From Subtercola lobariae (lineage in GTDB: Bacteria; Actinomycetota; Actinomycetes; Actinomycetales; Microbacteriaceae): a stretch of 64,000 nt of DNA. A program made the translations under genes and the position numbers. The stretch is from positions 248,001 to 312,000 of the forward strand of contig NZ_BMGP01000006.1 of assembly GCF_014640255.1 (NCBI RefSeq), in the 5' to 3' direction. The notes beneath the pieces are model-generated. The model ran no database searches, was not told where the DNA came from, and saw only the letters and a list, made by a program, of their open reading frames with translations. Shown here piece after piece: positions 27,925 through 43,475 of the stretch. The first letter of the stretch is position 1. Each line of letters opens with the position of its first letter.

Positions 27925-28572
27925 CTACTTGGCGTAGGGGTCGGGGTCGCCGTGGTTGACGAAGGTGACGGAGCCTTCGTCGCGCGAGCCATCGGCGCCG
28001 ACGGCGGCGAAGCTGTAGGTGTGCGGGCCGTAGCAGCTGAAGGGCACGGTGACCGAGCCGACTGCGGGCAGGGGCCCGTCAAATGGGTTGGCGACGGCGT
28101 CGTCGGTGTCGACTCCGATGTACACGGCTGTGGTGTCGCGCGCTGAATAGTCGAAGGTGAGGTCGAAATTCAGTTGGGCGGGCACCGCGTCGGTGCCGGT
28201 GACACAGACGACTTGCACTCCGTGGGTGTTGAACACCTGCATCAAGGGTTTCTTCGCTGCGGTCGGGGTGGTGGGGGTCGGGGTCGGTTTGCTCTGGGTG
28301 CCCGTGCCGGCAGCCGCACCGTTCGACGCTGCGGCCGAAGACGTTGCGCCGGGTGTCGTCGACGAGTTCGGGGCTGACGTCACTGTGCTCGTCGGCGATG
28401 CCGTCACCGGGGCTCCCGTGGTGACCGTGGTCGGGCTGAACAGAATGAAGGCGAGCAGCACTATCACCGCCAGGAGCAGAACGCCGATCACCCCGAGAAT
28501 CACCAGCAACGGCACGTTTCGTGGGCGGGGCGAGGGCACAGGCTGTGGCTCTGGTGAAACGGGCGTGCTCAC
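27925..28572 (-). CDS. Membrane-anchored protein with Ser/Thr-rich stalk
   Basis: 215 residues from GTG 28572 after AAGGAGAAG. Order: Pro-rich cytoplasmic start, one transmembrane helix (about 20-45, VPLLVILGVIGVLLLAVIVL), a Thr/Ser/Ala/Pro stalk (about 50-105), then an external beta-rich domain with Cys residues in VVCVTG and VPFSCYG that could form a disulfide, ending VTFVNHGDPDPYAK. The stalk is likely disordered and perhaps glycosylated. Family is not recognised; function is unknown. Confidence 0.7.
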   Translation of the reverse strand: MSTPVSPEPQPVPSPRPRNVPLLVILGVIGVLLLAVIVLLAFILFSPTTVTTGAPVTASPTSTVTSAPNSSTTPGATSSAAASNGAAAGTGTQSKPTPTPTTPTAAKKPLMQVFNTHGVQVVCVTGTDAVPAQLNFDLTFDYSARDTTAVYIGVDTDDAVANPFDGPLPAVGSVTVPFSCYGPHTYSFAAVGADGSRDEGSVTFVNHGDPDPYAK

Positions 28573-28711
28573 ACGCTTCTCCTTACGCAGGTCACGGCCG
28601 GAATCGGCCGTGGTTCGACGACGGACCGAACGGTGTGGGTGCCCCGGCCACATCAGCTACAACGCTTTTCTGCTTCGCAGGTTATCAGTTGGCATGGGTT
28701 GCCGAAAAGAA

Positions 28712-28740
28712 TAGAACATATGTTCGAATGTGTGTAGCGT
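28712..28740 (+). promoter_or_regulatory. SOS (LexA) box and leaderless promoter of alkB
   Basis: GAAC-ATAT-GTTC at 28714-28725 is an exact GAAC-N4-GTTC operator of the Gram-positive LexA kind, extended on the right by GA (GTTCGA). It fills the -35 to -20 region. The -10 TAGCGT (28735-28740) ends six bases before ATG 28747. LexA bound here would shut the promoter until DNA damage. Confidence 0.82.
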
Positions 28741-28746
28741 GGAGGC

Positions 28747-29388
28747 ATGGATGTTGCTTACCAGAAGTCGTTGTTCGATGAGCCAGGGGCCGAGCCTGAA
28801 CTCGAGCCGCTGGGGGGTGCTGTCGATCGCGTCGAGCTCGGGCAGGGCGCCTGGCTCGACGTGCGGCCGGGATGGGTGACCAACTCCGACGAGCTGTTCG
28901 AGCGACTCGCACAGCGCGTGCCGTGGAAGGCCGACTCGCGAGAGATGTACGACCGCGTTGTAGCCGTGCCGAGACTGGTTTCGTGGTTCGGGCCAGAGAG
29001 CGCGCTGCCCGACGCTGTGCTCGAGCGCGCCCAGCTCGACCTCAACGAGCATTACGGCCGGCCGAAAGGCCAGGTGTTCGAGACCGCGGGGCTCTGCTTT
29101 TATCGAACCGGTGAAGACAGCGTTGCCTGGCACGGCGATCGGGTGGGTCGGCTGATTAACCGCGACACAATGGTGGCGATAGTGTCGGTCGGCGCAGAAC
29201 GCACACTGTCGGTGCGGCCGAAGGGCGGCGGTGAGGTTCGCCGGTTCGCCGTTGGTCACGGCGACCTGGTGGTGATGGGTGGTAGCTGCCAGCGCACCCA
29301 CGAGCACGCCATTCTGAAGACGAAACAGGCGGTCGGCCCGCGCATCAGTGTTCAGTTCAGGCCGTATTGGAAGCGCTTGGGAGCCTGA
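28747..29388 (+). CDS. alkB: AlkB-like 2-oxoglutarate/Fe(II) dioxygenase
   Basis: 213 residues. FYRTGEDSVAWHGDRVGRL supplies the iron ligands His129 and Asp131; the distal His is in THEHA (185 or 187), and PRISVQFRPYW gives the 2-oxoglutarate-binding Arg (199/205). It repairs N-alkylated bases by oxidative dealkylation. The N-terminal WVTNSDELFERL and WFGPESALPDAV resemble the base-recognition lid of actinobacterial AlkB homologues. An SOS box controls the gene. Its last 32 bases overlap the next gene on the minus strand, tail to tail. Confidence 0.9.
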   Translation: MDVAYQKSLFDEPGAEPELEPLGGAVDRVELGQGAWLDVRPGWVTNSDELFERLAQRVPWKADSREMYDRVVAVPRLVSWFGPESALPDAVLERAQLDLNEHYGRPKGQVFETAGLCFYRTGEDSVAWHGDRVGRLINRDTMVAIVSVGAERTLSVRPKGGGEVRRFAVGHGDLVVMGGSCQRTHEHAILKTKQAVGPRISVQFRPYWKRLGA

Positions 29389-30019
29389 CTCCAGCCCCTG
29401 CCCCAACCCTAGGGTCGGTCGCCTTCGGGTCGGCCGACGCCAGGTCGGTCGAGTTTGGGCCGGCAGGCTTCGAGTCTGTAGTCTCCTGGTCGGCCGGTTG
29501 CGAATCGCTCGACGCCAAGTCGGCCGGCCCCAGAAGGCAGACGCCTCGCGAGTGGCTGAGGAGTTGGGCTCGAAGGGGGATGCCGCGCCTCTCGCAAGAG
29601 TGGGCAATCAGCTGAGCCCACCGTGCGTCTGCGGGGCTGAGCGCGCCGCGACCCGGGCGCTCCCAGACAGCGATGAGTTGAGTCGCGCCACGGTCAGCCA
29701 TGAGTCCCGCGATGAAAGCCAAGAGTACGTTAGCTTGCTTTTTGTCAGGCTCGACCGAGAAGTCGTCGCACGGAAATGCAAGGGGCACCTGCAGGTCGGC
29801 CGACGTGAGCATGAGGAGCCAGAGCTGATGGCGGCAGGCGGTGCCGATGGTGCTCATGACGCGCTCTTCGATGTGTGCGTCTGTACGCAGCGGCTGGTCG
29901 AGCAGCAGGTGACGCCGAGGCGACTCCGGCGGGTCGAACTGCCGCGGCTCACCCTGCGGAGGGGTGAGGGTGTGTGTCTCGTCGAGCTGGGGCGGGTGTT
30001 CTGCGGTGAGGGTTGTCAT
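29357..30019 (-). CDS. Conserved-looking hypothetical protein with degenerate repeat tail
   Basis: 220 residues from ATG 30019 (GAGG lies close upstream). The core, about 40-165, includes RTDAHIEERVMSTIGTACRH, QLWLLMLTSADLQVPLAFP and TQLIAVWERPGRGALSP, with mixed alpha/beta character. After the core a tail of about 45 residues repeats Ser/Thr-Asp-Pro/Ala units (ADLASSDSQPADQETTDS, then similar). No catalytic motif recognised. It overlaps the 3' end of alkB on the other strand, so the tail is constrained by both genes or is recently extended. Function is unknown. Confidence 0.65.
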   Translation of the reverse strand: MTTLTAEHPPQLDETHTLTPPQGEPRQFDPPESPRRHLLLDQPLRTDAHIEERVMSTIGTACRHQLWLLMLTSADLQVPLAFPCDDFSVEPDKKQANVLLAFIAGLMADRGATQLIAVWERPGRGALSPADARWAQLIAHSCERRGIPLRAQLLSHSRGVCLLGPADLASSDSQPADQETTDSKPAGPNSTDLASADPKATDPRVGAGAGVRLPSASNTA

Positions 30020-43083: not shown

Positions 43084-43475
43084 CGTATCTCGATTCGTGC
43101 GTGCTCATCTACGCCGTTGAAGACGACGGCCCGCGAGGTGCGCATGTTCGTCAGCGCTTGGCAGATGCGAGCGAACAGACGTTCGTCATCAGTCCGCTCG
43201 TCAAAATGGAATGCCTGGTTGGTCCGTTGAGAAACGATGACCTCGCTCTCCATGATCATTACCTTGAGGCGTTCGCGCAGTTCGGGTCGGTCGATATCGC
43301 GGCCGGTCAGTATCTGCGGGCGGCCGAGCTGCGGGCGCGGCATCGACTTTCCGCGCCTGACGCGCTTCATCTCGCGACTGCTCAGGCTAACCATTGTGAT
43401 GAGTTGTGGACCAATGATGCACGACTGCAGACCGTCTCGCGGGGCCTGGCCGTCGACGTGATGTCAGATCCCTGA
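43074..43475 (+). CDS. vapC: VapC-type PIN-domain toxin
   Basis: 133 residues. The four acidic residues that hold Mg2+ in PIN ribonucleases are present: Asp7 (YLDSCVLIY), Glu46 (KMECLVG), Asp96 (SAPDALHLATA) and Asp115 (WTNDARL). So the nuclease should be active. Most VapC toxins cut tRNA or the sarcin-ricin loop of 23S rRNA; the target here is unknown. The last codons are part of a 16-bp direct repeat that runs into the flank. Confidence 0.93.
   Translation: MGVTYLDSCVLIYAVEDDGPRGAHVRQRLADASEQTFVISPLVKMECLVGPLRNDDLALHDHYLEAFAQFGSVDIAAGQYLRAAELRARHRLSAPDALHLATAQANHCDELWTNDARLQTVSRGLAVDVMSDP

Follow-up and report, generated by a model that had tools for sequence, protein, structure and literature searches.

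Does an alkylation-repair gene of an actinomycete answer to the SOS repressor LexA? The question is raised by alkB of a Subtercola strain, which lies in the 64-kb stretch of DNA analyzed here (the window; host genome 4.09 Mb) directly behind a palindrome of the LexA-operator type. Comparison with the remainder of the genome and with orthologous loci indicated that this alkB belongs to the LexA regulon with a probability of about 0.93. The features of the locus and the related sites elsewhere in the genome are compiled in Table 1.

Table 1. Features at the alkB locus (window positions) and related features elsewhere in the genome
Feature	Position	Strand	Description
LexA operator (SOS box), candidate	28712-28727	+	TAGAACATATGTTCGA; 16-mer upstream of alkB
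Operator core	28714-28725	+	GAACATATGTTC; exact GAAC-N4-GTTC type
-10-like element	28735-28740	+	TAGCGT (TANNNT), predicted
alkB	28747-29388	+	213-aa Fe(II)/2-oxoglutarate dioxygenase, AlkB family (ALKBH3-like)
Clamp-binding-like motif	28762-28779	+	QKSLFD, codons 6-11 of alkB; QxS[LM][FL]D
LexA-like site, ≤2 mismatches	~285-300 bases upstream of recA		recA
LexA-like site, ≤2 mismatches			ImuA' (NF058630) of the imuA'-imuB-dnaE2 cassette
LexA-like site, ≤2 mismatches			Rv2578c-family radical SAM gene (NF038135)
LexA-like box, one mismatch	G000:C1 840663-840678 (L072/L087)		flanked by an AHSA1-domain gene and a 92-aa frame
Ada-AlkA fusion, 557 aa	L188, G000:C5 near 86255-86449		on a contig other than that of alkB

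The gene encodes a dioxygenase of the AlkB family with its catalytic residues kept. Enzymes of this family are recognized by an HxD...H iron site and an RxxxxxR 2-oxoglutarate site. The corresponding residues H129, D131, H187, R199, and R205 were invariant in an alignment of 69 AlkB proteins, which comprised the protein of the window and those 68 of 80 loci from named genomes that had a Met-initial match. A profile search matched the protein to Pfam PF13532 (E 7.5e-14) and gave zero matches to NCBIfam. Its nearest solved relatives in sequence were human ALKBH3 (phmmer E 1.2e-14) and then ALKBH2. The same order was obtained with the single-chain AlphaFold model (mean pLDDT 86.7, pTM 0.86): among the matches listed, ALKBH3 was nearest with a TM of up to 0.73, followed by ALKBH2 with 0.63-0.71, and bacterial AlkB structures gave 0.49-0.59 among the 50 matches listed. 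Site residues, family profile, and fold are thus all those of an AlkB. Seven Streptomyces orthologues showed 57-61% identity to the protein across the aligned part. Its substrate in Subtercola is presumably damage of the N1-methyladenine/N3-methylcytosine type.

The preliminary description had placed an exact GAAC-N4-GTTC operator over positions -35 to -20 of a leaderless alkB promoter. The exact operator is present and the placement was confirmed, the core being located at -33 to -22 relative to the alkB ATG, close to the span stated. The 16-mer is followed by ATGTGTG, TAGCGT, six bases, and the ATG, so that TAGCGT would place the transcript start at or adjoining the ATG. A leaderless promoter is predicted from TAGCGT close to the ATG and from the conserved geometry of box, -10 element, and ATG. 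A generic sigma-70 scan of positions 28500-29600 found zero promoters. In a terminator scan of the same region, the minus strand gave a single weak site resembling a terminator.

The number of cores in the window is at chance level. GAACNNNNGTTC occurs twice, the mean of shuffled sequences is 1.41, and 38 of 100 shuffles reached two. Significance of GAACNNNNGTTC from the single window was therefore rejected, about one occurrence being expected by chance, and proof of an operator has to be comparative. The second exact GAAC-N4-GTTC of the window, GAACAGACGTTC at 43173-43184, lies where no frame of at least 150 aa spans it.

The genome has one match to LexA and one to RecA. It was searched with CGAACNNNNGTTCG (CGAAC-N4-GTTCG) and with GAACATNNGTTC, after which the AT-centered 16-mer TCGAACATATGTTCGA was adopted. 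The search with GAACATNNGTTC gave 11 matches, among them the alkB site and a ruvA site. Only five sites of the genome fit the 16-bp palindrome TCGAACATATGTTCGA with ≤2 mismatches, including that of alkB, which agrees with the consensus at 15/16 positions; the other four are given in Table 1. The cassette with the ImuA' site encodes IMS and DNA polymerase III alpha domains. The alkB and recA sites also share their downstream arrangement, in which a 7-base spacer starting with ATGT connects the 16-mer to TANNNT. The box beside the AHSA1-domain gene is a possible further SOS target, judged by its sequence; the adjoining 92-aa frame was without a Pfam match.

With ≤3 mismatches, TCGAACATATGTTCGA was found at 27 sites genome-wide as compared to 4 for the pattern read backward. 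Six of the 22 three-mismatch sites were placed: two at lexA, one at ruvA, and three inside long frames. Codon usage may account for many of the 22 as background, given that the genome is already rich in CGAAC-N4-GTTCG with one mismatch (560 sites per strand as compared to 133 for the control).

Conservation of the box was then analyzed at orthologous loci of Actinomycetes. A total of 143 loci were pooled, of which 34 came from genus and family, 29 from the class, and 80, the best among 584, from named genomes; 135 with distinct upstream DNA were kept, and the remaining eight had the same 100 upstream bases as another locus. The scoring matrix was built from seven sites of the Subtercola genome with alkB excluded, and dinucleotide shuffles served as background. 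The box score exceeded the 95th, 99th, and 99.9th shuffle percentile in 131, 119, and 100 of the 135 loci, respectively, whereas the control stretch from -160 to -81 did so in 3, 0, and 0. In 124/135 loci the best-scoring 16-mer started at -39 to -35. A TANNNT sought at -18 to -8 was present in 134/135 loci, always starting at -14 to -12; each of nine equally wide control stretches had one in 0-3 of the 135 loci. These 135 rows are related, non-independent sequences gathered by similarity to the AlkB of the window, and the control provides a contrast with adjacent DNA. Eight further members of the family, fetched separately, all had the box, which matched at 11 or all 12 of its 12 positions. 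Exceptions were L164 and L176, which are without a proper box, and L225, in which the box is degenerate; L221 was mis-anchored and scored as a miss in the 135-locus count, although a box-like TCGAATGTGTGTTTGA is found where this gene really starts.

The gene itself is accessory in genus and family, because 3/12 genus genomes and 259/299 family genomes were without a match. It was found in 9/12 genus genomes, in 40/299 family genomes (two of them with weak partial matches only), and in 224/394 class genomes, representing 68/138 genera. One Subtercola bin (G009) contained two alkB copies (L002 and L010; 92% and 85% identical to the alkB of the window), both with boxes. This bin may be mixed, since it is 86% complete with 4% contamination.

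Direct control of alkB by LexA is strongly supported by the sequence comparison: a promoter box close to TCGAAC-N4-GTTCGA, the same box at other SOS genes, its conservation at orthologues, and a genome encoding both LexA and RecA. The control by LexA proposed in the preliminary description thereby gained comparative support from the SOS sites of the genome and from the orthologues. From these data we infer LexA binding, repression, inducibility, and the transcript start at alkB in Subtercola. LexA dimers would occupy the box over -35 to -20 of the leaderless promoter and block RNA polymerase. Upon stalling of replication, RecA filaments would form and LexA would cleave itself, which would open the alkB promoter; the AlkB then made would remove the methylated bases.

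LexA control of an AlkB is already known, and Subtercola represents a new member of this group; the novelty implied by the preliminary description was not borne out, as the link has been published for Streptomyces venezuelae (PMC9380542) and Mycobacterium tuberculosis (PMC8151990). In S. venezuelae, alkB (vnz_32390) is a LexA ChIP-seq target that was induced 11.02-fold by mitomycin C and is counted in the core LexA set; the LexA targets include recA, lexA, dnaE2, ruvA, a radical SAM gene, and alkB (PMC9380542). An actinomycete AlkB is thus a LexA target there as it is predicted to be in Subtercola. In M. tuberculosis, the putative AlkB Rv1000c is among the SOS-box genes, induction of alkB by mitomycin C is RecA-dependent, and imuA', imuB, dnaE2, lexA, and alkB are jointly RecA-dependent (PMC8151990). 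M. tuberculosis resembles what is predicted for Subtercola in having a putative AlkB with RecA-dependent induction.

Regarding the box of S. venezuelae alkB, we propose a correction. It is printed as GGTTACGCTGGATC at -20 (PMC9380542, Table 1), and this sequence is similar to the -10 region found in Streptomyces orthologues such as L168, in which a GAAC-type box, GGGAACACATTTTCGA, is located about 20 bases further upstream than the -10-like region. Against this correction, the table marks GGTTACGCTGGATC as validated; the SPR text of the same paper names only lexA, recA, dnaE2, and uvrA. The comparison was made with Streptomyces orthologues, as S. venezuelae alkB had no exact match among the 235 loci.

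The preliminary description had also stated that AlkB homologues are generally under Ada or constitutive. This applies to Escherichia coli, where the Ada regulon consists of ada, alkA, alkB, and aidB, and to Pseudomonas putida with its constitutive alkB (PMC3788762), but not to the Actinomycetes considered here. AlkB of E. coli and, by inference, that of Subtercola are both inducible alkylation-repair enzymes. They differ in that Ada is the inducer in E. coli, whereas alkB of Subtercola has a LexA box and its genome encodes Ada as an Ada-AlkA fusion on another contig. A regulon prediction has placed alkB and ada of E. coli under LexA as well, via intragenic sites (PMC4576408).

LexA might be one input only, with alkB also answering to Ada or to some other regulator of the damage response. 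This is conceivable because, in an M. tuberculosis strain with recA deleted and pafBC turned down, alkB was present at wild-type level and still responded to mitomycin C, and AlkB protein was detected (PMC8151990). Furthermore, Ada is encoded in the Subtercola genome; the fusion consists of Ada metal-binding, helix-turn-helix, and AlkA N-terminal domains, and its gene is adjoined by a divergent helicase-like frame. However, the single recA mutant of M. tuberculosis showed RecA-dependence of alkB, and for related genes a fall in LexA was put forward as a plausible explanation (PMC8151990). A second input is possible but rather unlikely. That the palindrome arose by chance before a truly constitutive or Ada-controlled alkB promoter is very improbable: a single GAACNNNNGTTC is indeed expected about once per window and the Ada-AlkA fusion could act as regulator, but the position of the box is conserved class-wide and its sequence matches the other SOS promoters of the genome.

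SOS control as the preferred reading of the locus indicates that Actinomycetes in which this AlkB is kept commonly couple the direct reversal of alkylation damage to their SOS system. Ada can persist as a separate Ada-AlkA regulator beside an alkB wired in this manner.

Additionally, the N-terminus of AlkB drew attention, as a conserved island in its otherwise variable tail could dock the enzyme on the sliding clamp. Q6 and S8 of the motif were invariant in the 69 aligned proteins, and neighboring positions varied. Q-x-S-[LMI]-[FL] was found by script in 133/135 loci and on inspection in the other two; L141 was mis-started and L221 mis-anchored by the script, and both have the N-terminal motif. 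Of the shuffled actinobacterial tails, 0.4% contained QxS[LM][FLW] and 4.6% contained Qxx[LM][FLW], a less strict form. For binding to the beta clamp, the motif Q-phi-x-[LM]-[FL] has been published (PMC11139829), with phi being L, I, V or A (PMC13254535). A strict fit to it was obtained for 54 of the 133 loci, and the rest deviated mainly at position 2. As candidate clamp motifs, HQPSLWAD (QPSLW) in the strain's own DinB and QVLVAW in its ImuB were picked by eye.

Judged by these sequences, bacterial AlkBs may carry an N-terminal beta-clamp motif by which the SOS-induced enzyme would ride DnaN and clean the template at stalled forks, a tentative proposal to which we assign a little less than an even chance. 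AlkB would then sit on DnaN alongside clamp-bound translesion factors released by the same LexA switch. If this is true, bacteria would have their own equivalent of the human ALKBH2-PCNA pair. ALKBH2 binds PCNA via an APIM motif (PMC11139829, PMC7261172); the systems would be alike in tethering an AlkB dealkylase to a sliding clamp, provided that the N-terminal motif binds DnaN, and they differ in both motif and clamp. No interaction of a bacterial AlkB with the clamp was found in the literature searched, to which van den Born 2009, a classification of bacterial AlkBs, did not belong.

The odds are about even that QxSLFD does not bind the clamp but is packed against the AlkB fold or serves to recruit a different partner. 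In favor of this, the model does not show the tail as disordered (mean pLDDT 72 for residues 1-10 and 89 for residues 11-20), but it is without secondary structure up to residue 17, and the motif forms a conserved island between variable positions, both of which argue against packing or another partner. In one genus of Microbacteriaceae, T replaces Q in all five genomes seen (L091, L092, and L094-L096), and the LexA boxes of this genus are perfect or nearly so; this replacement counts against docking on the clamp, as does the low share of strict motif matches. A different partner is suggested by a review that lists E. coli AlkB among those of SSB, which would offer another route to the fork (PMC11253446). 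Applied to DnaE1 as positive control, the script gave QADLL at residue 729 as its sole match, and this was not taken as a clamp motif; the lack of a clear motif in this control weakens docking on the clamp.

Distant AlkBs gave evidence in both directions. In a plasmid set of 23 proteins, hand-chosen among 50 listed out of 84 matched records, 19 were from outside Actinomycetes. Nine of these had a Q-type motif (QLSLF twice, QLNLF, QLSLW, QLNIW, QLSLNL twice, QQELF, and QNDLF). Some carry the canonical QLSLF or QLNLF near the N-terminus, which speaks for the clamp as partner; examples from the plasmids are MDQLSLFD in Vibrio tritonius, LIKQLSLFD in Synechocystis, and MQQLNLFP in Nostoc sp. HK-01. 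The other 10/19 were without the Q form, eight showing DLF without Q and two neither, which counts against it. Several of the plasmid frames are unannotated, and in L178 the motif precedes the annotated start. The alkB gene of Caballeronia insecticola (L177) looks frame-broken, its matching frame ending early and the annotated CDS starting later.
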